From a virus: DNA of 24,766 nucleotides. Position 1 is the stretch's first letter. Every line of letters begins with the position of its first letter. The position numbers and the translations under genes were made by a program. The notes under the pieces were generated by a model. That model was not told the origin of the DNA. It saw only the letters and a program-made list of their open reading frames with translations, and ran no database searches. This document shows positions 8,237 through 24,766 of the stretch, one piece after another. The stretch covers positions 1,057-25,822 of IMG/VR virus record IMGVR_UViG_3300000233_000025; one strand, written 5' to 3'.

Positions 8237-9796
8237 ATGGCACAGGTCCCAAAGATCGACTCCAATATCACCGGCCTTGCCTACGCTGAGGAAGCTCAGC
8301 TCGGCCTGCTCCCCGGTGAAGGCGGACTCGGTGGTACACCAGTCTGGTATCGACTGAACCCCAACAGCTACAACGATTTCGGCGGTGAGATCATCACCGT
8401 TGCTCCGAACCCGATCAACCCGTCGCGTCAGCGGCGCAAGGGTGTGACCACCGATCTGAACGCGACTGGTGGTATCAACCAGAACCTGACGTTCGAAAAC
8501 CTGACCGATCTTATGCAGGGTGTCATGTTCGCTGACATTCGCGCACAAGGCGAACAGGTGGTGACCGCCGTCGACATCGATGGTGCAAACCCTGACGAAT
8601 ACGAAGTCGCCTCGACCACTGGCTTCATCGTCGGCAACCTGATCATCGGTCGTGGTTTTGCGAACTCCCAGAACAACGGCGTCAATCAGGTGACAGCGGT
8701 CGTTGCTGCAACTTCGATTGAAGTCGCCACTGGTTCGCTGGTCGCAGAAGCTTCGCCGCCGACTGGTGCTGACATCAAGGTCGTTGGCTTCCAGTTCGCT
8801 GATGCAGACGCAGCGATCGACGTCAGCGGGAACCTTCCTGCTCTGACCTCGACTGCTGTCGCCGATCTGACCACTCTGGGTCTGGTTCCCGGTCAGTGGG
8901 TCTATATCGGTGGTGATCTCGCGGCCAACACTTTCACAGCGGCTGTGAACAACGGCTTCAAGCGCGTGCGCTCGATCACTGCTGACGCAATCACGTTCGA
9001 CAAGTCGGACGCTGTCATGGTGGCCGATGCAGGTGTCGCTGGCAAGACCATTCGCCTCTACTACGGCGATGTTCTTCGCAACGAAACTGGCTCTCTCATC
9101 AAGCGCCGGACCTACAACGTGGAACGCACGCTCGGCGCTCCTGACGATGCTTCGCCCGCTCAAATCCAGTCCGAAGTTCTGATCGGTGCTGTGCCGAACG
9201 AATTCACGCTGAACATTCCGCAAGCTGAACTTGCGAACGTCGACGTGACCTTCGTCGCCACGGACAACTCTCAGCGCGACGCAGCGACTGGCCCGAAGCA
9301 GAGCAACGTCCAGGACTTCCGGGTTGCTCAAGAGTACAACACCTCGAGCGACATCGGCCGCATCCGTCTGGGTGTCGTGTCTGATGTGGACGAAGCCTCC
9401 TCGGCTCTGTTCGCCTACGTCACGGAAGCAAGCATCGCGATCAACAACAACGTCACGCCCAACAAGGCGGTCGGTGTTCTCGGTGCCTTCGACGTGACGG
9501 CTGGTACGTTCAACGTGTCCGGCTCGCTGACGGCCTACTTCTCCACTGTTGCTGCGACACAGGCTGTTCGCAACAACGCAAGCGTGACGCTCGACATCAG
9601 CTTCGTGAAAGACAACACGGCGCTGGTCTATGATCTGCCGCTCATCTCTTTGGGCGACGGGCGTCTCAGCGTCGAAATTGACCAGCCGATCACGCTTCCG
9701 CTCAACACGGATGCTGCATCTGGTCAAGACATCAGCGCCGATCTCGATCACACGCTGCTGGTGACCTTCTTCAACTATGTACCGGACGCCGCGTAA
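8237..9796 (+). CDS. Major tail tube protein
   Basis: A 519-residue protein consistent with the large tail-tube family Phage_tube_2 (probably PF18906). Features seen: an N terminus with YAEEAQLGLLPGEGG, a SRQRRKGVTTDLNATGGI stretch, TGSLIKRRTYNVERTLGAPD in the middle, and a C-terminal domain with ITLPLNTDAASGQDISADLD. Tube proteins stack as hexamers and form the DNA channel. At over 500 residues it is large, with extra beta-rich modules near residues 110-260 probably facing outward. The ribosome site AAAGGAGG (8223-8230) is close to ideal, and codons favour C endings, so strong expression is likely. A 9-bp hairpin spans the stop codon. The tail-chaperone pair follows, as is standard. Confidence 0.9.
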   Translation: MAQVPKIDSNITGLAYAEEAQLGLLPGEGGLGGTPVWYRLNPNSYNDFGGEIITVAPNPINPSRQRRKGVTTDLNATGGINQNLTFENLTDLMQGVMFADIRAQGEQVVTAVDIDGANPDEYEVASTTGFIVGNLIIGRGFANSQNNGVNQVTAVVAATSIEVATGSLVAEASPPTGADIKVVGFQFADADAAIDVSGNLPALTSTAVADLTTLGLVPGQWVYIGGDLAANTFTAAVNNGFKRVRSITADAITFDKSDAVMVADAGVAGKTIRLYYGDVLRNETGSLIKRRTYNVERTLGAPDDASPAQIQSEVLIGAVPNEFTLNIPQAELANVDVTFVATDNSQRDAATGPKQSNVQDFRVAQEYNTSSDIGRIRLGVVSDVDEASSALFAYVTEASIAINNNVTPNKAVGVLGAFDVTAGTFNVSGSLTAYFSTVAATQAVRNNASVTLDISFVKDNTALVYDLPLISLGDGRLSVEIDQPITLPLNTDAASGQDISADLDHTLLVTFFNYVPDAA

Positions 9797-9806
9797 TCGC
9801 GGCGTC
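9785..9806 (+). other. Hairpin enclosing the tail-tube stop codon
   Basis: GACGCCGCG (9785-9793) and CGCGGCGTC (9798-9806) form a perfect 9-bp stem with the loop TAAT, so the TAA stop (9794-9796) sits in the loop. No U-tract follows. It could stall RNases at the end of the tube mRNA or slow termination. The left arm codes the last residues of the tube protein, so the sequence serves both uses. Confidence 0.65.
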
Positions 9807-9833
9807 TACCCCACCTAGAACAGGAGATTAAAG

Positions 9834-10262
9834 ATGGGTATGTATGACATTTTCGAGACCGATGAGGACCTCGAAAACGCTGGCATCTGGCTGGACTATG
9901 GCGACTTCCGTGTGAAGGTTGCCTCGGCTGGTCAGGGCAACAAGAAATATGTGCGCTATGCCGAAAAGGCTCTGAAGCCGATTCGCCGTGCCATGCAGGC
10001 CGGAGCAGTTTCGAACGAACGCTCCATGGCGATCATGTCCGACATCTATGCCAAGACAATCGTGCTCGACTGGCAAGTCAAGGGCGACAACGGCTGGAAG
10101 CCCGGCATCGAAGGCCGCGACGGCGAGATCCTTCCCTTCAACAAGGAAGAAGTCCAGAAGGTTTTCGAGGCTCTGCCCAACCTGTTCATCGACGTGCAGG
10201 AACAGGCGAACTCGATCTCGAACTTCCGGAAGCAGGAAATCGAGGAAGACTCGGGAAACTGA
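9834..10262 (+). CDS. Tail assembly chaperone, short (G-like) form
   Basis: A 142-residue protein made when ribosomes stop at TGA (10260-10262). It lies between tube and tape measure genes, the fixed place of the lambda gpG/gpGT type chaperones, which coat the tape measure and recruit tube subunits but do not stay in the virion. The sequence is helical and charged after residue 20 (KKYVRYAEKALKPIRRAMQA, then NKEEVQKVFEALPNLFIDVQ), like other chaperones of this class. The ATG at 9834 has AGGAG at 9822-9826; a second in-frame ATG at 9840 is less well spaced. The last two codons before the stop form the slippery site listed separately. Confidence 0.88.
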   Translation: MGMYDIFETDEDLENAGIWLDYGDFRVKVASAGQGNKKYVRYAEKALKPIRRAMQAGAVSNERSMAIMSDIYAKTIVLDWQVKGDNGWKPGIEGRDGEILPFNKEEVQKVFEALPNLFIDVQEQANSISNFRKQEIEEDSGN

Positions 10263-10585
10263 CAGCCGTCCTGGAGTATCAACTCCAGAGTGGGGCGGTG
10301 GAACAACAGATCATTGAGCAGGCCGTGAAAACCGGCCAGCCCATACCTAGTCGTATAGAAAATGCCCCTAGCATTATGCCGGGGCTTGAACTATACTACA
10401 TAGGCTTTCTGGAGTTAACTTCTTCGCGGCAAATGGGCTTCGGCATCGGACCTATCCCGTGGCTCGCGATTGAACAATACTGCATGGTGAAGGGACTTGA
10501 TGAAGAGCAGCAAGAGGCGATGCACCATCACATCATCGCGATGGACACCGTCTACATAAAGTATCAAGCAAAGAAGCAGAAGTAA
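9834..10585 (+). CDS. Tail assembly chaperone, long (GT-like) frameshift product
   Basis: The predicted -1 frameshift product: bases 9834-10259 in the first frame, then reading resumes at 10259 (CTG ACA GCC...) in the -1 frame to the TAA at 10583-10585. This gives about 250 residues: 142 of the short form plus 108. The added part begins LTAVLEYQLQSGAVEQQIIE and continues with GLELYYIGFLEL and a C-terminal helix (GLDEEQQEAMHHHIIAMDT), resembling the T domain that binds the tube protein in lambda gpGT. The -1 frame is open right across the stop, and the T-like sequence already starts upstream of any possible start codon, which argues for fusion. The shift rate cannot be read from sequence. Confidence 0.8.
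10253..10259 (+). promoter_or_regulatory. Programmed -1 frameshift slippery site GGGAAAC
   Basis: The heptamer GGGAAAC is read G GGA AAC in the first frame, so it has the X XXY YYZ form of canonical -1 sites, and TGA follows at once at 10260-10262. A slip gives GGG AAA and continues with CTG. A Shine-Dalgarno-like GAGGA (10242-10246) lies a few bases upstream and a hairpin begins 11 bases downstream, both known kinds of stimulators. Confidence 0.88.
10271..10288 (+). promoter_or_regulatory. Probable frameshift-stimulating hairpin
   Basis: CTGGAGT (10271-10277) and ACTCCAG (10282-10288) form a perfect 7-bp stem with the tight loop ATCA. It starts 12 bases after the last base of the slippery heptamer (11-base spacer), slightly longer than the usual 5-9, but it is the strongest local structure and sits on the coding side of the shift. 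Confidence 0.65.
10298..10585 (+). CDS. Downstream chaperone ORF (T-like segment, normally read by frameshift)
   Basis: Taken alone, the downstream frame has a GTG at 10298 and codes 95 residues, beginning with EQQIIEQAVKTGQPIPSR and ending in IKYQAKKQK. I list it because automatic annotation may call it as a gene, but I think it is made as the C-terminal part of the 9834-10585 fusion. The frame is open well upstream of the GTG, the upstream codons give sequence that fits the domain (LEYQLQSGA), and the GTG has no convincing ribosome site. Its TAA overlaps the next ATG (TAATG). Confidence 0.6.
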   Translation: MEQQIIEQAVKTGQPIPSRIENAPSIMPGLELYYIGFLELTSSRQMGFGIGPIPWLAIEQYCMVKGLDEEQQEAMHHHIIAMDTVYIKYQAKKQK

Positions 10586-11064
10586 TGGCCGATCTCATCC
10601 AGTTCTCGAAAAACATCAGACGTCGGGGACGTCAGGTTGAGAACTCGGCCGCTGAACTTGTTCGCAGCATGGCTAAACGCACTCTTCGCTCCCTTGTCCA
10701 GAATACCAAAGTCGATACCGGGAAAGCCCGCTCCAACTGGCGGGTCGGTATCGGCGCTCCTACGACTGCTGTCATTGAGGCTTACGCTCCCCATGCGAAG
10801 GGCAGCAAAGGCACCGGACGAGGAACCTCCGAGACTGCGAATGCCAACGCCACGATCGCTGCTGGTAACGCTCGCATCAACGGTGTGAAAGGTGTGTCAG
10901 GTGTCGGTCTGAAGACTGCCATCATCATCTCGAACAACGTACCATATCTCGACAAAGCCTTGCTTCCGGGTGCTGTTGAGGTTTCTATCCGTGAGGCCCA
11001 AGCGGTGCTTCGTGGATTTAAGATCTTCAGCAATTCCGGTGGCAGTGACGGAGGCGACATCTAA
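10585..11064 (+). CDS. HK97 gp10-like tail completion or neck protein
   Basis: A 159-residue protein resembling the HK97 gp10-like group: a basic N-terminal helix (FSKNIRRRGRQVENSAAELV), then TKVDTGKARSNWRVGIG, the family's typical DTG..RSNW stretch, and later ISNNVPYLDKALLPGAVEVS. Members act in joining head and tail or in finishing the tail. Here it sits after the chaperones and before the tape measure, not among the head-tail connectors, so a tail-side role is more likely. A Ser/Gly/Asp-rich C-terminal tail ends the protein. The ATG shares a base with the chaperone stop and its own stop shares a base with the tape measure ATG. Confidence 0.75.
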   Translation: MADLIQFSKNIRRRGRQVENSAAELVRSMAKRTLRSLVQNTKVDTGKARSNWRVGIGAPTTAVIEAYAPHAKGSKGTGRGTSETANANATIAAGNARINGVKGVSGVGLKTAIIISNNVPYLDKALLPGAVEVSIREAQAVLRGFKIFSNSGGSDGGDI

Positions 11065-14000
11065 TGGTTACTGAAACCGTCACAGTCAACTTTGTTGAGA
11101 ACGGCGCTCGAGTTATCAAGCGCCGTATCGATGAAATCGGTGAGTCTGCGAACAAAGCCACTCGGGGCATTTTTCTGCTCAAGCGTGCGCTCTTCGTCTT
11201 GGGTGGTGCTGGTGTCGTAAGCAGCCTCGCTAAGATGACTGACGCTCTCACGAACATGGAAAACAAACTGCGTCTGACTTCCAACAGTACGGCGAACTTG
11301 GAAGCGGTGCAGAGCAAGCTGTTCGAGTCTGCGAACCGTTCTCGTTCGGCGGTTGAAGCGACGGCATCCATCTACAGCCGTATCGCGCTCTCGGCTCGTA
11401 ACCTCGGGGCCAGTCAAGAGCAAGTTATCGCGGTCACTGAAACGCTGCAGAAAGCGGCTGTTATCTCGGGTGCCTCTGCCCAAGAAGCGAACGCAGCACT
11501 GATCCAGCTTGGACAGGGTCTTGCATCTGACCGTCTGTCTGGTGACGAACTTCGGTCCGTTCTCGAACAGCTTCCTTTCGTTGCTGACATTCTCGTTGAC
11601 TACCTGAACAAGACTGGTCAATTCGGCAAGGTCACTCGGGGTACGCTGCGTGAACTCGGCACCGAAGGCAAGCTGACTGCTGACATAGTGTTCAAGGCGA
11701 TTGAGGCTGCACAGTCCGGCGTTGATGCTCTGTTCGCAGAAACCAATCCGACGATTGAACAAGCGTTCAACGTCGCCCGAAACAACATCTTGAAATTTAT
11801 CGATGACTTTGATGATGCGACTGGTGCAAGTGCGAAACTTGCCAAAGCGATCATCGTCGTATCTGAGAACATCGATTTCATTGTCGCTGCTCTGGCTCTG
11901 GTTGCTGGTGGCTTTGCTCTGTCCTTTGGCGCTTCGGTGCTTGCGACCATCAATGGATATGCGGCTGGCTTCACCCGCGCTGGTGCTGCGATTGCCCGCT
12001 ACGCCTCGATCCAAGTCGCTTCTGCAACGAGCCAAGTGGCCGCGACGACTGCTGTTCTCGCTGACAGCCGCGCTCGCCTCGCGAACATTCAAACTCGGTC
12101 TGTTCAAATCGGAGCAACTCTGCGAAATGCTCAGGCTGAATATGCTGAAGCGACTGCGGTGTTCCAAGGTGGCCGCGCTCGTTCCACGGCGACTGGACAG
12201 TTCATCGGTATGCAGGCAGCGCGTGATCGCCTGACGGCTGCGACCATTCGCCTGACGGCTGCTGAAAACGCGAACAATATCGCGACTGGCAGAAGCGTTG
12301 CACTGTCCGCCCAGACCACGGCGGCTGAGACGGCACAGGCTGCGGCACGGACGCGTCTGGCAGGGGCTACAGCCGCCCAGAGCGGCATCCTTGTGCGTCT
12401 GGCAGCTACGTTCCCGCTGCTCACTGGTGTTATCCGGGGTGCAACTGCTGCGATCGGTATCTTCTCTGCTGCGCTTCTGGCAAATCCGATCGGGCTTGTT
12501 ATTGCAGCGATCACGGCTCTGCTTATCCTGTTCTTCACCTTGGGCGACAAGATCAAGGTCACTGCTGATGGCGTGGTGAGTTTCAAAGACGCCACAGTCG
12601 CAGCATTCCAGCTTCTGTTCGAAGCCCTCGCTCCATTCGTTGGTCCTGTTTGGGATGCAATCTCGAATGCTCTTGCAGCAACTCGTGATTTCATTGTGGA
12701 CGCGGCTGGTGTTATCTCGACAGCTTTCTTCAACGCTGTTGAGAATATCATCGACGCATTCACGTTCATTCCTCGTGTGGTTATCGGCGTGGTAGCTGGG
12801 GTTATCGCAGCCTTCCAAGCACTGCCCGGTCAAGCGGCTGCGGTTGCGACAAGTATCGCCAACGCTCTGATCGGTGGTTTCGAAGCATTCGCCAACGGTG
12901 CTATCAAAGCTATCAACACTGTGATCAGAGCCTTGAACGCGCTGCTCAGCTTCGTTGGTGCTGAAAAGGCTGCTGAATTCTTTGGGTTCAGTGGTCAGCT
13001 TTCTGAACTTTCTGAAGTCACTCTGCCTCGCTTCACTGATGCGGCGGCTGATGCTGGTGTAGAAGCTGGCGACGCTTTCATCAACGGGTTCAACAAAGTC
13101 TACGAAGGTGGCAAGATCGCCAACATTGGAACGGGCATCGCGAATGCGCTGGCTCCTGTTGGTGACGCTATCATCGATCGTGCTCGTCAGAACATCGCAA
13201 ACGAGCCGCCCAAGGCGGGAGCGTTGGAAGATCTCGCTGGTACAAATCCAGGTGGTCCTGGCGCTGGTGCTGGTGGAGGCGGGGGTGCTGGTGGAGCCAA
13301 CGAGAAAAGCTTCGCTCAAGAACTGGCTGAGATCCAACAAAAGATCGAGCTCGAGAAGCAGTACGGTCTGCAGAAAGAGATCAACAATCAGATCCTCGCT
13401 ATCGAGAAAACTCTGAAGCGTGACTTGTCTGCTACCGAGAAAGAGCAGGTCGCAACGGCTGTTCAGCTTCTGGAAATCTCGAAGGCTTATGGTTCCATTC
13501 TCGAGGAAATCAAAGGACCTCAAGAAGCCCTGCAAATCGGGCAGGCTGCACTGAACCAACTGTTCGCAGAAGGTGCAATCAACCTCGAGAACTACAACAG
13601 CAAACTTCGTGAACTTCAGATCAACGCTGACAAAGCTGCCAACACGATCGGCGGAGGTTTCCGGGCTGCTATCGCAGGAAGCATCCAGTCTGCTGGTGAG
13701 TTTGGTGAGGCGCTCGGCGGTGTGGTGGTCGGCGCTGCTGGCAAGGCCGCAGACGCGATCGTTGAATTCGCTCAGACTGGTAAACTCAACATTCGCGCAT
13801 TCTTTGCAGATCTGTTCGCTCAGCTTCTGAAACTCGCTGCTCAGCGTCTCTTGCTTTCCTTCCTCGGTGGCTTCTTGGGCATTCCCGGTGGTGGCCTCGG
13901 TGGTGGTGGTCTTCCTGGATTCGCAAGTGGTGGCTCTATCTTGCCCAGTGGACCTGGATCAACCGATTCGCAAATAGTAGCATTTGCCAAGAGACCTGAT

Positions 14001-14219
14001 GAGCGTGTAGACATACTTACGCCGGGTCAGCAACAGGCCAAGAAGAACGGTGAAGGTCAAGGCGGTGGAACTACGATTGTTCAATCTCCGCCTGTGAATG
14101 TCGCCGCTGTTCTCAGCCCAAATGACATCATCGGGGTGTTCAATGATGGCGGTGACACGCAAATCATTAACATTCTGCAACGTAACGCTACGACCGTAAG
14201 ACAAATCGCCCAGTCGTAA
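11064..14219 (+). CDS. Tape measure protein
   Basis: A 1051-residue protein that sets tail length and is ejected ahead of the DNA. Residues 1-250 hold the conserved tape measure domain (ANLEAVQSKLFESANRSRSA, then AALIQLGQGLASDRLSGDEL). Hydrophobic segments lie near residues 270-297, 455-494 and 572-606, probable membrane-inserting helices. A Gly-rich linker near 729-746 leads into a long coiled coil (about 749-860). The C terminus has a Gly-rich patch and GFASGGSILPSGPGSTD, common at the ends of lambda gpH-like proteins. At about 1.5 angstrom per residue, the length predicts a tail of very roughly 150-160 nm. No lysozyme or peptidase motif is visible. A long antisense ORF across it is a codon-bias shadow. 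Confidence 0.95.
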   Translation: MVTETVTVNFVENGARVIKRRIDEIGESANKATRGIFLLKRALFVLGGAGVVSSLAKMTDALTNMENKLRLTSNSTANLEAVQSKLFESANRSRSAVEATASIYSRIALSARNLGASQEQVIAVTETLQKAAVISGASAQEANAALIQLGQGLASDRLSGDELRSVLEQLPFVADILVDYLNKTGQFGKVTRGTLRELGTEGKLTADIVFKAIEAAQSGVDALFAETNPTIEQAFNVARNNILKFIDDFDDATGASAKLAKAIIVVSENIDFIVAALALVAGGFALSFGASVLATINGYAAGFTRAGAAIARYASIQVASATSQVAATTAVLADSRARLANIQTRSVQIGATLRNAQAEYAEATAVFQGGRARSTATGQFIGMQAARDRLTAATIRLTAAENANNIATGRSVALSAQTTAAETAQAAARTRLAGATAAQSGILVRLAATFPLLTGVIRGATAAIGIFSAALLANPIGLVIAAITALLILFFTLGDKIKVTADGVVSFKDATVAAFQLLFEALAPFVGPVWDAISNALAATRDFIVDAAGVISTAFFNAVENIIDAFTFIPRVVIGVVAGVIAAFQALPGQAAAVATSIANALIGGFEAFANGAIKAINTVIRALNALLSFVGAEKAAEFFGFSGQLSELSEVTLPRFTDAAADAGVEAGDAFINGFNKVYEGGKIANIGTGIANALAPVGDAIIDRARQNIANEPPKAGALEDLAGTNPGGPGAGAGGGGGAGGANEKSFAQELAEIQQKIELEKQYGLQKEINNQILAIEKTLKRDLSATEKEQVATAVQLLEISKAYGSILEEIKGPQEALQIGQAALNQLFAEGAINLENYNSKLRELQINADKAANTIGGGFRAAIAGSIQSAGEFGEALGGVVVGAAGKAADAIVEFAQTGKLNIRAFFADLFAQLLKLAAQRLLLSFLGGFLGIPGGGLGGGGLPGFASGGSILPSGPGSTDSQIVAFAKRPDERVDILTPGQQQAKKNGEGQGGGTTIVQSPPVNVAAVLSPNDIIGVFNDGGDTQIINILQRNATTVRQIAQS

Positions 14220-14231
14220 GGAAAGAACAAC

Positions 14232-15737
14232 ATGCCCTTCTCAACTGGGACAGCCCGTCACTCCACAGAACTTCTGAACAAGATCAATGCTCACCTTGTG
14301 GCAAACTCTTGGACGAAGCTTCGTGGTGATACAGATTTGAATTGTGCCAGTCCGAAATCTGCTCGCTACTGGCGAATGGTTGTTTTTGAAACTCAGACTA
14401 CGAATTCGACAACTCGTGGTCTTCAGCTGCTTAATTTGCGTACGACCGTTGGTGGTGCGAACGTTGCGACTGTTGGTGCGAACTGGACCGTCTCTGACGT
14501 CTCTGTCGGTTCCCCTTCTCTGCTTGTTTCTGGTGGTGTCGTTCGTTCAGGAAACATCGGCGCATCTCGTGCTTGGTGGTGTACCTACGACTTCGGCGTT
14601 GCGACGACAATTCGTGAAGTCTACTTCCGCGCTGATAGTTCGACTGGTCCCACCCCTCGCTCTTGGGTTATCCAATGGTCTAACGACAATGAAACCTGGA
14701 CCACGATGTGGGAAGGATCTTCGATCAGCATATCCGCGAACGCTTATTACACTTGCACTTTCGGTGATGGATATCTCTCGCCCGTCCATATCGCCTCTAA
14801 CGCTGCTCGTCGTTCTGGATCTATTGAAGATCAACTTAGTGATGCTAACTGGGAAGGCAACGGCGGTCGTCATTTCAGCAACGATTATTTCGTGTGGCAG
14901 GGCAACGGCTACGACGCAGATCGTCGCGTATTTATTCATGCGAGATCTCACTCTTACCCAGCAGTCAACTCCGAGTTCATTGAATTCAACTTTTCAGTTC
15001 AATACAATTCTTTACTGAGAGATTTTCAAGATCAAGTTGGGACTTCTGGTTTTTCACTATTTCATCTTCATGGTGGTGGGACGATTTCCTATTGGATTTA
15101 TTCCAATTCGAAGAGAATTATCCTCGTCACCAAGACTGGCGCAAGCGATTACTGCACTTCCTACATCGGTTTTATGTCCGCTTTTGCAGATCCTGATTAT
15201 TATCCATTCCCTCTCATAATGGCATCTACAGCAGCAGATCGTTCTGCTGTTTACGCGACCACAGACAATGGCTTGAGCAGTATGGTTGATCCCGGATTTG
15301 GAAATCTCATCGCTCGTTATTGGGATGGAACTGTGAAATCTGGTGGAAACAGAAATCCAGGACCAGTTGAGGGTTATAATATCAGCGGATCAACTTCTCC
15401 GTTTCCTTACGTCTGGCCGCACTATTTTGGAAAGTGTAACAACAACGATCGTTTTCCTGACAATATGGGGGCTGGTACTTCTGGCTCTCTCTATAACAAT
15501 CAGACTCTCATGGAGAAACTGGTTCCGACTGTTCAAGATGATTTGCCGCTTATTCCAGCACTTATTCAAGATCATGAGTATGGAAATCTTGGTGCGATGG
15601 ATGGAGTTTTCATTCTCCCGGGAGGCGGCATTGTCGCTGCTGAACAAGCTTTGACAATTAGCGGTGTGAACTACAAAATCTTCCCGAACAGGACGCGTCG
15701 ACTCGGTGCTTCTTGGATGGCAGTTAGAGAGGACTGA
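14232..15737 (+). CDS. Tail protein with discoidin-like (F5/8 type C-like) domain
   Basis: A 501-residue tail protein. Residues about 44-185 read like a galactose-binding beta-sandwich of the F5/8 type C class: SARYWRMVVFETQTTNSTTR, then REVYFRADSSTGPTPRSWVI and WSNDNETWTTMW, the last typical of that fold. Such domains often bind sugars, so this part may touch the cell surface. The rest shows a module shared with the next gene (YWIYSNSKRIILVTKTGASD, followed by a YIGFMSAFADPDYYPFPL stretch), met in tail proteins of many phages. The start is the ATG 12 bases after the tape measure stop, with AAGGAAAG ahead. From here on codons shift toward T endings. Sugar binding is inferred from the fold only. 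Confidence 0.7.
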   Translation: MPFSTGTARHSTELLNKINAHLVANSWTKLRGDTDLNCASPKSARYWRMVVFETQTTNSTTRGLQLLNLRTTVGGANVATVGANWTVSDVSVGSPSLLVSGGVVRSGNIGASRAWWCTYDFGVATTIREVYFRADSSTGPTPRSWVIQWSNDNETWTTMWEGSSISISANAYYTCTFGDGYLSPVHIASNAARRSGSIEDQLSDANWEGNGGRHFSNDYFVWQGNGYDADRRVFIHARSHSYPAVNSEFIEFNFSVQYNSLLRDFQDQVGTSGFSLFHLHGGGTISYWIYSNSKRIILVTKTGASDYCTSYIGFMSAFADPDYYPFPLIMASTAADRSAVYATTDNGLSSMVDPGFGNLIARYWDGTVKSGGNRNPGPVEGYNISGSTSPFPYVWPHYFGKCNNNDRFPDNMGAGTSGSLYNNQTLMEKLVPTVQDDLPLIPALIQDHEYGNLGAMDGVFILPGGGIVAAEQALTISGVNYKIFPNRTRRLGASWMAVRED

Positions 15738-22526: not shown

Positions 22527-22691
22527 GACTGCATGGGGACGTCCAGGAGGGCCGTTGTGGGGTGGTAGGTGGTAGGGTAGCGGCAAGGGGCGGCAAGCCA
22601 TGCCCTGCCCTGCCCTGTGGCCGCGTTGCGTGCCCTGCTGCCCATGCCCCCGCAACCAGCGCGTCCACAGAGTTCTCAAGGAGGTATTCGT
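22527..22691. other. Skewed G-rich/C-rich spacer
   Basis: A 165-base gap, the largest in the tail-lysis part. Bases 22533-22590 are rich in G and T, with the tandem GGTGGTA twice (22561-22574) and several G runs. Bases 22597-22665 are rich in C, with TGCCC three times in a row (22601-22615). GGACGTCC (22537-22544) is a perfect palindrome. GGCA (22592-22595) and TGCC (22601-22604) could close an imperfect larger stem. Short ORFs here (one from 22617 in frame with the spanin) look non-coding. It ends with the strong ribosome site AAGGAGG at 22678-22684. Its composition is unlike any other spacer in the window. Confidence 0.6.
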
Positions 22692-23033
22692 ATGCTCTCT
22701 AGGGTTGTGCTAAAGGACATTTTGCCTTATATCATCGTTATCGCTGCGCTCGTGGGAGCGTATTTCTATATTCGGCACGATGCCTACAACGATGGCGTTG
22801 CAGACACGACGTTGAAATATGAAAATGCAATCCAAGATGAGCGTGAGCGCCTCTCAGCGGCAAGCGAAGCTGCACTCAGGGAAGCCCGCGCCAAGGAAGC
22901 AGAACTGAACCGGCTACTGAGAGAAAGAGATGCAACTATATCTCAACTTGAACAAGAGGCAAATTCTGATCCTGACGCTTCTCGCCCCGCTATCTCTATT
23001 GATGGCGTGCAGCGGCTCAATAGGATCCGTTGA
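22692..23033 (+). CDS. Inner-membrane spanin (Rz-like)
   Basis: A 113-residue protein with one N-terminal membrane segment (ILPYIIVIAALVGAYFYI, residues 10-27) followed by a charged coiled coil (DERERLSAASEAALREARAK, then AELNRLLRERDATISQLEQE). This is the i-spanin layout: anchored in the inner membrane, periplasmic coiled coil, pairing with the outer-membrane partner to fuse the membranes at the end of lysis. The partner gene starts inside it in another frame, a known Rz/Rz1 arrangement. The ATG at 22692 has the near-ideal AAGGAGG seven bases ahead. An in-frame GTG at 22617 would add a Pro-rich stretch without meaning, so I prefer 22692. Confidence 0.85.
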   Translation: MLSRVVLKDILPYIIVIAALVGAYFYIRHDAYNDGVADTTLKYENAIQDERERLSAASEAALREARAKEAELNRLLRERDATISQLEQEANSDPDASRPAISIDGVQRLNRIR

Positions 23034-23241
23034 ACCTCCCAAACTGGCACCGCCGCCAGACTCTTTGATCGCATCTTGCGCTCGACCTGTTCTCCTGCCT
23101 TCTCGTGTACTTTCGCAGTCCGAAGCCGAGACCTTCTGGGTCAGAGATCGGGCAAATCTTATCACTTGCGGGGAACGACATAAGGCTCAAACAGAGTTCT
23201 ACAGATCCCGCGACTCCAAGGTTATGGGAGAGACTAATTGA
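22930..23241 (+). CDS. Outer-membrane spanin lipoprotein (Rz1-like)
   Basis: A 103-residue protein starting within the i-spanin gene in the +1 frame and reaching 208 bases past its end. It has a signal sequence (KRQILILTLLAPLSLLMAC) ending in a lipobox, LLMAC, so the Cys would be lipidated and the protein sorted to the outer membrane. A Pro-rich stretch follows (VEPPKLAPPPDSL), as in Rz1. Beyond it lie a helical part and a C-terminal charged end, longer than the classic Rz1, and two further cysteines. The ATG at 22930 has AGAGA ahead (22919-22927), a modest site that suits translation by ribosomes already on the i-spanin message. Presence of the pair shows a Gram-negative host. Confidence 0.88.
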   Translation: MQLYLNLNKRQILILTLLAPLSLLMACSGSIGSVEPPKLAPPPDSLIASCARPVLLPSRVLSQSEAETFWVRDRANLITCGERHKAQTEFYRSRDSKVMGETN

Positions 23242-23492: not shown

Positions 23493-24019
23493 CCCAATAT
23501 AAGATCCTACACATTCTTCAGTACGTGATTTTCAGTATGATCGCTATTGTCATCATGATGGTTGGTCCTCCCATGGAACGATTGCTGTTTCCGGTGATCA
23601 CCAAATTCGAAATTCCGAAAGAAGCCATCGTTCGTCTACCCGATGGATCAACTCAGATATCTGGAGTCCTTATAAAGGCTAGAGGAGAATGTGAACCTGT
23701 TCGAGGATCACTCACTGTCTTCACTGATGAATTTGTCAATTCTGAGGATCATCCAGCGAAACCGGTCAAAATCATCTTTGAGCCTCAAACTGAATGGTAC
23801 ACCAGACCATCAGGATCTCAATATTTTGGTCCTTGGAGATTGATTCCCCCAGAGCCTCCACTTGGGCCTTCTCTGATCATGCGAATTCGCCACCGCTGCC
23901 ACCCATTCTGGGAAATTGAAACTGTTCTGTTCACTGGTCTTACCAGCGATTTCTTTTCAACGAAGGAAATAACTGGTCAAACTCCATGGGAAAAAGGAGA
24001 ACGTAATGTCGTCGACTAA
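23489..24019 (+). CDS. Single-TM protein of unknown function in the lysis region
   Basis: A 176-residue protein. One hydrophobic helix near the N terminus (YVIFSMIAIVIMMVGPPMER) is followed by about 140 residues of mixed beta character with Pro-rich loops (FGPWRLIPPEPPLGPSLIMR) and a HRCHPFW motif; with the other Cys, two cysteines could form a bond if outside the cytoplasm. I know no family. The layout, with a membrane helix and a probable periplasmic domain, would fit a lysis regulator, a superinfection-exclusion protein or a receptor-blocking protein, but that is guesswork. It overlaps the previous stop (ATGA) and the endolysin start lies inside its last 14 bases. Confidence 0.7.
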   Translation: MTQYKILHILQYVIFSMIAIVIMMVGPPMERLLFPVITKFEIPKEAIVRLPDGSTQISGVLIKARGECEPVRGSLTVFTDEFVNSEDHPAKPVKIIFEPQTEWYTRPSGSQYFGPWRLIPPEPPLGPSLIMRIRHRCHPFWEIETVLFTGLTSDFFSTKEITGQTPWEKGERNVVD

Positions 24020-24766
24020 CTTCAAAATCTGCACCGAGTGGGCACTGGTCCATGAAGGTGGATATGTCAATCACCCAAAGGATCCGGGTGGTGCGACAAA
24101 CAAGGGCGTGATCCAGCGCACCTATGACGGGTATCGCAATCGCATCGGCAAGCCTCGTCAGTCTGTTCGCAGCATCACGATGGCCGAGGTTCTGGACATC
24201 TACAAATCCCAATACTGGGACTTGATCCACGGCGATGACCTACCTGCTGGCCTCGACTATGCGATGTACGATTTCTCGATCAACTCCGGTCCTTCCCGCG
24301 CTGTGACGTTCTTGCAGGAAATCCTTGGTGTGAAGGTCGACGGCGTGATGGGCAACGTCACTCTCGGCGCTATCAAACGTCGCAACGATATCAGCGGTCT
24401 CATCCAGGCTCTGTGCTTGAAACGCTGGAACTGGATGAAGCGTCTGTCCACGTTCAAGACCTTCGGCAAAGGCTGGACCCGTCGTGTGATGGGCGATGTC
24501 ATTGACGGCGTGCAGGCTGGCAAAGATCATGGCGTCATCGATCGCGCTGTCTGGTTGTTCGAAGGCCAGACCAACATCGCTGCTCCGCTCATGGCTGCAC
24601 CGGGCAAGGCCGAAGCCGAGGACATGGCCCTGATGGGACAGGCCAAGGACGAGCTGAATATCGACAGCCTTGGCAAGATCAGCGCCGGTATCATTCCCGG
24701 AGCCTTGGCTACCGTGACCGCTCTCCCGCCCGGTCCTCTGCAATGGGCGGCGGCTGGCATCTTTGT
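24006..24766 (+). CDS. Endolysin, GH108 family (3' end cut by window)
   Basis: At least 253 residues, open to the edge. The N terminus has VHEGGYVNHPKDPGGATNKG; the Glu at residue 17 in HEGGY is the catalytic acid of GH108 muramidases, which cut peptidoglycan glycan chains. Then YDFSINSGPSRAVTFLQEIL and GVKVDGVMGNVTLGAI match the PG_binding_3 domain (PF09374) that accompanies GH108. The typical two-domain unit is about 170 residues, so a C-terminal addition exists: an acidic stretch, then ISAGIIPGALATVTAL and QWAAAGIF, possibly one or two membrane helices. The ATG at 24006 has AAGGAG at 23994-23999 and overlaps the previous gene by 14 bases. Codons return to C-ending ones. There is no N-terminal signal, so a holin is probably needed. 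Confidence 0.92.
   Translation, partial: MSSTNFKICTEWALVHEGGYVNHPKDPGGATNKGVIQRTYDGYRNRIGKPRQSVRSITMAEVLDIYKSQYWDLIHGDDLPAGLDYAMYDFSINSGPSRAVTFLQEILGVKVDGVMGNVTLGAIKRRNDISGLIQALCLKRWNWMKRLSTFKTFGKGWTRRVMGDVIDGVQAGKDHGVIDRAVWLFEGQTNIAAPLMAAPGKAEAEDMALMGQAKDELNIDSLGKISAGIIPGALATVTALPPGPLQWAAAGIF

Follow-up and report, generated by a model that had tools for sequence, protein, structure and literature searches.

Comparative evidence for a probable programmed -1 ribosomal frameshift in a tail assembly chaperone gene of G/GT type from an uncultured bacterial virus

The tail assembly chaperone gene of an uncultured, metagenome-derived bacterial virus (IMG/VR virus record IMGVR_UViG_3300000233_000025) very probably uses a programmed -1 ribosomal frameshift of the G/GT type. 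The analysed stretch of DNA, called the window, comprises 24,766 nt (positions 1,057 to 25,822 of the record); coordinates below refer to it, and the chaperone locus, its signals and its tail gene neighbours lie on the + strand. An initial annotation of the window had proposed that the gene yields both a G and a GT chaperone by such a shift, and this proposal is strongly supported by the conservation of the heptamer, of the frame arrangement and of the protein encoded in the -1 frame.

The chaperone locus and its slippery heptamer

The G-like chaperone gene (9834-10262) encodes 142 aa in the 0 frame and ends ...TCG GGA AAC TGA. Its stop codon (TGA, 10260-10262) adjoins the 3' end of a slippery heptamer, G_GGA_AAC (10253-10259), which is recognised by sequence, phase and conservation; the letters agree with the X XXY YYZ phase and the neighbouring TGA given in the initial annotation. 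Across the site, the -1 frame reads GGG AAA CTG ACA GCC GTC, or GKLTAV, and stays open past the stop up to a TAA that ends at 10585. This extension, the T domain (10256-10585), is defined by the open frame and by family matches and adds 109 aa past the shift, so that the GT fusion has 141 + 109 = 250 aa, confirming the predicted length of about 250 residues. GGGAAAC occurs once in the window, against about 3 copies expected by chance on both strands; its presence alone is thus no proof, and its phase, place and conservation carry the weight.

We infer that most ribosomes in this phage would read G_GGA_AAC_TGA and terminate to give G (142 aa), while in a minority the tRNA-Gly and tRNA-Asn on GGA AAC would re-pair to GGG AAA by tandem slippage, with stimulation by a stem-loop beginning some 6 nt past the heptamer. 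The shifted ribosomes would then produce GT (250 aa, with 109 in the -1 frame) in low proportion. By analogy with lambda, G would bind the tape measure protein, and recruitment of the tail tube protein would fall to the T part, so that the G:GT ratio would matter. Within the A_AAA series, E. coli ribosomes shift less readily on A_AAC than on A_AAG (PMC5009743), and shift efficiency could therefore be low.

Both products fall in tail assembly chaperone families. The G half hits phrog_313 (E 2.4e-27; named 'Tail assembly chaperone'). For the T half there are hits to PF23812 Phage_TAC_18 in Pfam (E 2e-22; named 'Phage tail assembly chaperone') and to phrog_3817 (E 7.8e-32). The two halves cover phrog_8233 in order, G at 5-136 and T at 140-251. 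Modelled with AlphaFold2 (pLDDT 89), the G half matches predicted viral tail assembly chaperones in BFVD, with a best E of 1e-11. Nothing significant was found for this model in the PDB with Foldseek and VIA-align, and comparison of the G and T sequence profiles with solved structures gave no credible match. The annotator of the Siara record gives an HHpred match of 98% to 2OB9, an HK97 gp13-like fold, for the G homologue.

The overlapping G and T frames, with T in the -1 frame, are sited between the tail tube and tape measure genes. The gene order is tail tube protein (8237-9796; PF18906 Phage_tube_2, E 2.6e-28), G/GT, a tail completion or HK97-gp10-like protein (10585-11064; PF04883, E 2e-4; phrog_169, E 2e-18) and tape measure protein (11064-14219; PF20155 TMP_3, E 1.3e-52). 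A tail-region gene at 14232-15737 shows a weak F5/8 type C (galactose-binding) match under Pfam's cut-off, and its product is possibly a receptor-binding or decoration protein. Farther downstream, 22617-23033 and 22930-23241 resemble an Rz/Rz1 lysis pair, in which the start of the second ORF falls within the first, in a different frame, and this second ORF carries a lipobox-like LLMAC; neither has a Pfam match. An endolysin with the Glyco_hydro_108 and PG_binding_3 architecture (24006-24766) runs off the window end.

Conservation of the heptamer and of the -1 frame

Comparison of related phages had been called for in the initial annotation. GGGAAAC or AAAAAAC was found at the homologous codon in all 25 IMG/VR relatives identified via the G half. 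When the search was widened by means of the T alignment, 80 IMG/VR loci were obtained, of which one (L058) was incomplete; the heptamer is present in all 79 scored loci, as GGGAAAC in 52, AAAAAAC in 26 and GGGAAAG in 1. GGGAAAC or AAAAAAC was also present in 25/25 named phages, which were picked across the ranking with the weakest matches included and which partly overlap the IMG/VR set (for example, CN1). Among the 79 IMG/VR loci and 25 named phages, phase and codon of the heptamer are kept down to about 24% identity, and there was neither a relative with T and G in a single intact frame nor one without an X XXY YYZ heptamer, the two observations that had been named as speaking against the frameshift. 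A quick protein tree, from which the residues encoded by the site itself were largely left out, calls for a minimum of 18 changes between GGG and AAA, and no intermediates were seen.

Vibrio phage VP11 (L036) has a -1 frame that is open no earlier than the heptamer's first base and a 0 frame that ends right after the heptamer, so a shift is possible only within these 7 nt. The heptamers almost always end in AAC, the sole AAG being that of L106, and the final C of the heptamer also begins a Leu codon that is conserved in the -1 frame.

Just past the site, the T-frame residues K1, L2, V5, L6 and Y8 are invariant in an alignment of 15 sequences. Over codons 3-14 past the shift, entropy is 1.64 at third positions versus 0.95 and 0.87 at positions 1 and 2, a nearly 2-fold difference. 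These data bear on the possibility that G and T are two separate genes, in which T would be made as a protein of 95 aa from the GTG at 10298 by re-initiation or internal ribosome entry and with no frameshift. The corresponding ORF (10298-10585) is indeed present, and in several records the downstream ORF is entered on its own, as a 'tail chaperonin' or as hypothetical. Against this, over the 14 codons ahead of the GTG, right back to the heptamer, it is the protein of the -1 frame that is conserved, and the first possible T-frame start in relatives ranges from codon 2 to codon 68; at least 13 of 78 relatives lack any possible start ahead of codon 45, and ATG is absent altogether from 2. With conserved codons ahead of the GTG and starts so scattered, an independent 95-residue product, which the initial annotation had listed as a potential refutation, is not the main explanation, and two genes would moreover leave the heptamer in every relative unexplained. 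We consider the two-gene arrangement highly improbable.

Signals around the heptamer

Fold energies were compared with those of synonymous-codon shuffles of the T frame in 78 distinct sequences. Across the 42 nt at +5..+46, folding is stronger than in the shuffles, with a mean z of -2.23 and 81% of sequences below -1, means that ignore kinship; the window alone gives a z of -2.16 (p 0.025). Sliding along the T frame, the mean z is -2.23 at +3..+44 and mostly near 0 elsewhere. A stem-loop downstream of the heptamer is thus selected beyond protein coding, and its exact form varies between clades. A second, weaker structure excess was seen at +51..+104 (10310-10363; mean z about -1.2 in the 78 sequences), which may reflect an element of longer range or a signal for the downstream gene.

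The initial annotation had described a 7-bp hairpin in the window, 11 bases past the heptamer. This hairpin, CTGGAGT-ATCA-ACTCCAG, is present at 10271-10288 with 7 perfect pairs, but it is only the core of a longer stem. The probable full stem (10266-10293) forms 11 of 12 possible pairs, with a C10270.A10289 mismatch, although other outer pairing is also predicted. The spacer is therefore probably nearer 6 than 11 nt, and 11 does not serve as a defining number, the spacer being also not constant across clades. For L045 and L048, which are the nearest relatives, all 12 pairs are possible and the stem begins 6 nt past the heptamer; no double compensatory change was found in this close-relative stem. 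A 71-nt fold of the window hairpin was not better than dinucleotide shuffles (z -0.48). Conservation of the hairpin in relatives, proposed as a check, holds for the structure excess over synonymous shuffles and not for the pairing itself, which differs by clade: other clades use different registers, +8..+13 with +32..+37 or +9..+18 with +26..+35. When the two registers were counted, one beat its slid controls and the other tied with a neighbouring register. A single stem common to the whole family was rejected, as RNAalifold gave no consensus for 37 diverse sequences, and a search of 9800-11100 against Rfam gave no family match.

The structure also bears on transcriptional slippage along a run of A, or of G and A, in place of a ribosomal shift. 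AAAAAAC, found in 26/79 relatives, contains an A6 run on which a polymerase could slip, but the window and 52/79 relatives have GGG AAA only, with runs of three. The selected stem-loop right after the site is what ribosomal slippage would predict, and the X XXY YYZ phase is never lost. The transcriptional mechanism is likewise highly improbable. A sequencing or assembly error that splits one long gene into two frames is a negligible prospect and already refuted, since 79 separate contigs and the records of 25 phages share the arrangement.

Upstream of the site, GAGGA (10242-10246) is Shine-Dalgarno-like in its letters and had been proposed as such an element. An upstream Shine-Dalgarno stimulator is an optional, not a defining, element for G/GT. 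Anti-Shine-Dalgarno pairing in the 22 nt before the site was no better than in synonymous shuffles (mean z -0.12 for 75 relatives; window z 0.11), and a dnaX-type stimulator was rejected on this basis. GAGGA instead reflects the glutamate codons (EE) encoded there.

The stop next to the heptamer had been taken to mean that shifting and termination compete directly. Among the 79 IMG/VR loci, the 0-frame stop lies at +0 in 42, +3 in 22, +12 in 1 and +39 in 14. In 22/25 named phages it stands directly past the heptamer, the others being RDJL1 (12 nt) and YuA and CN1 (39 nt). With T protein and codon usage held fixed, stops were expected at +0 in 35 and observed in 52 of 78 distinct sequences, and expected by +3 in 41 and observed in 67, in sequences that are related, with 7 changes of stop position on the protein tree. 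These data suggest some selection for a near stop. The near stop is thus commoner than expected, which supports the competition only indirectly, and the YuA/CN1 clade, with its stop 39 nt off, indicates that it is not required. Mean distances of 26 and 36 nt were reported for other tail chaperone sets in the PRFect paper (PMC10274946), which puts a distance of 0 at the short end.

It is doubtful that selection maintains the stop beside the heptamer as an element of the shift signal. As a conjecture on how the stop might act mechanically, with the weaker A_AAC a ribosome that has passed AAC and waits at a slowly decoded stop could slip at this later point too, while tRNA-Asn occupies the P site. 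If the stop were such a signal, release-factor supply would tune the G:GT ratio, and the YuA clade would be without the stop component. As the family has nearly two heptamers only, both ending in AAC and with a stop beside them more often than expected, it forms a natural series for testing stop proximity against -1 shifting.

Relation to known frameshift systems

The programmed -1 frameshift as a mechanism is not new. The G/GT shift is of a textbook kind, exemplified by lambda G/GT, and the roles of its products have been reviewed (PMC5009743). As a new example of this kind, the present copy has unusually good support; what is added are the survey of relatives, the confinement to 7 nt in VP11, the synonymous structure test, the rejection of the Shine-Dalgarno element and the stop-adjacency statistic. 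Among the tail frameshifts on record for phages, the family is a firmly supported addition.

A joined frameshift CDS is annotated in six of the examined records (KL1, RcSimone-Hastad, RcThunderbird, AH03, RcRudolph and Siara) and is missing from the majority of the rest, so that many public records, such as YuA, PaMx25, JWX and AXL3, carry the frameshift unannotated. In YuA, AXL3, DoCa3, PaMx25 and Achromobacter phages, the frameshift product is missed and G alone or a short separate T ORF is annotated; loci of this kind include L029 (YuA), L030, L032, L034, L035 and L039, and some records call G a 'tail fiber'. The YuA record also annotates a high-activity -24/-12 promoter (L029 1603-1763) that overlaps the T-coding region.

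The closest described case is gp18/gp19 of Burkholderia phage KL1, for which GGGAAAC followed by TGA was predicted in 2012 (PMC3483164). The two T halves are homologous with 47% identity, G has 142 aa in both, GGGAAAC stands directly before TGA in both, as was checked in the KL1 sequence, and the locus lies one gene before the tape measure gene. They differ in genus and in the length of T, which is 109 aa here and 123 aa in KL1, and both shifts are predictions from sequence alone. YuA/M6 and Bordetella CN1 (Mesyanzhinovviridae) have the same G and T families, with GGGAAAC at the homologous codon, but their 0-frame stop lies 39 nt downstream and the G tail is 13 codons longer.

As in lambda G/GT, the predicted -1 shift takes place on G_GGA_AAx near the end of G, with G and GT encoded before the tape measure gene. 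The lambda heptamer is GGGAAAG, whereas the present one ends in AAC, and unlike in lambda an extra HK97-gp10-like gene stands between T and the tape measure gene. Both heptamers of the present family also occur in haloarchaeal viruses, where the g-t site is G_GGA_AAC in HCTV-1 and A_AAA_AAC in HCTV-2 (PMC5009743); the hosts are unrelated, and the likeness noted is that of the shift sites.
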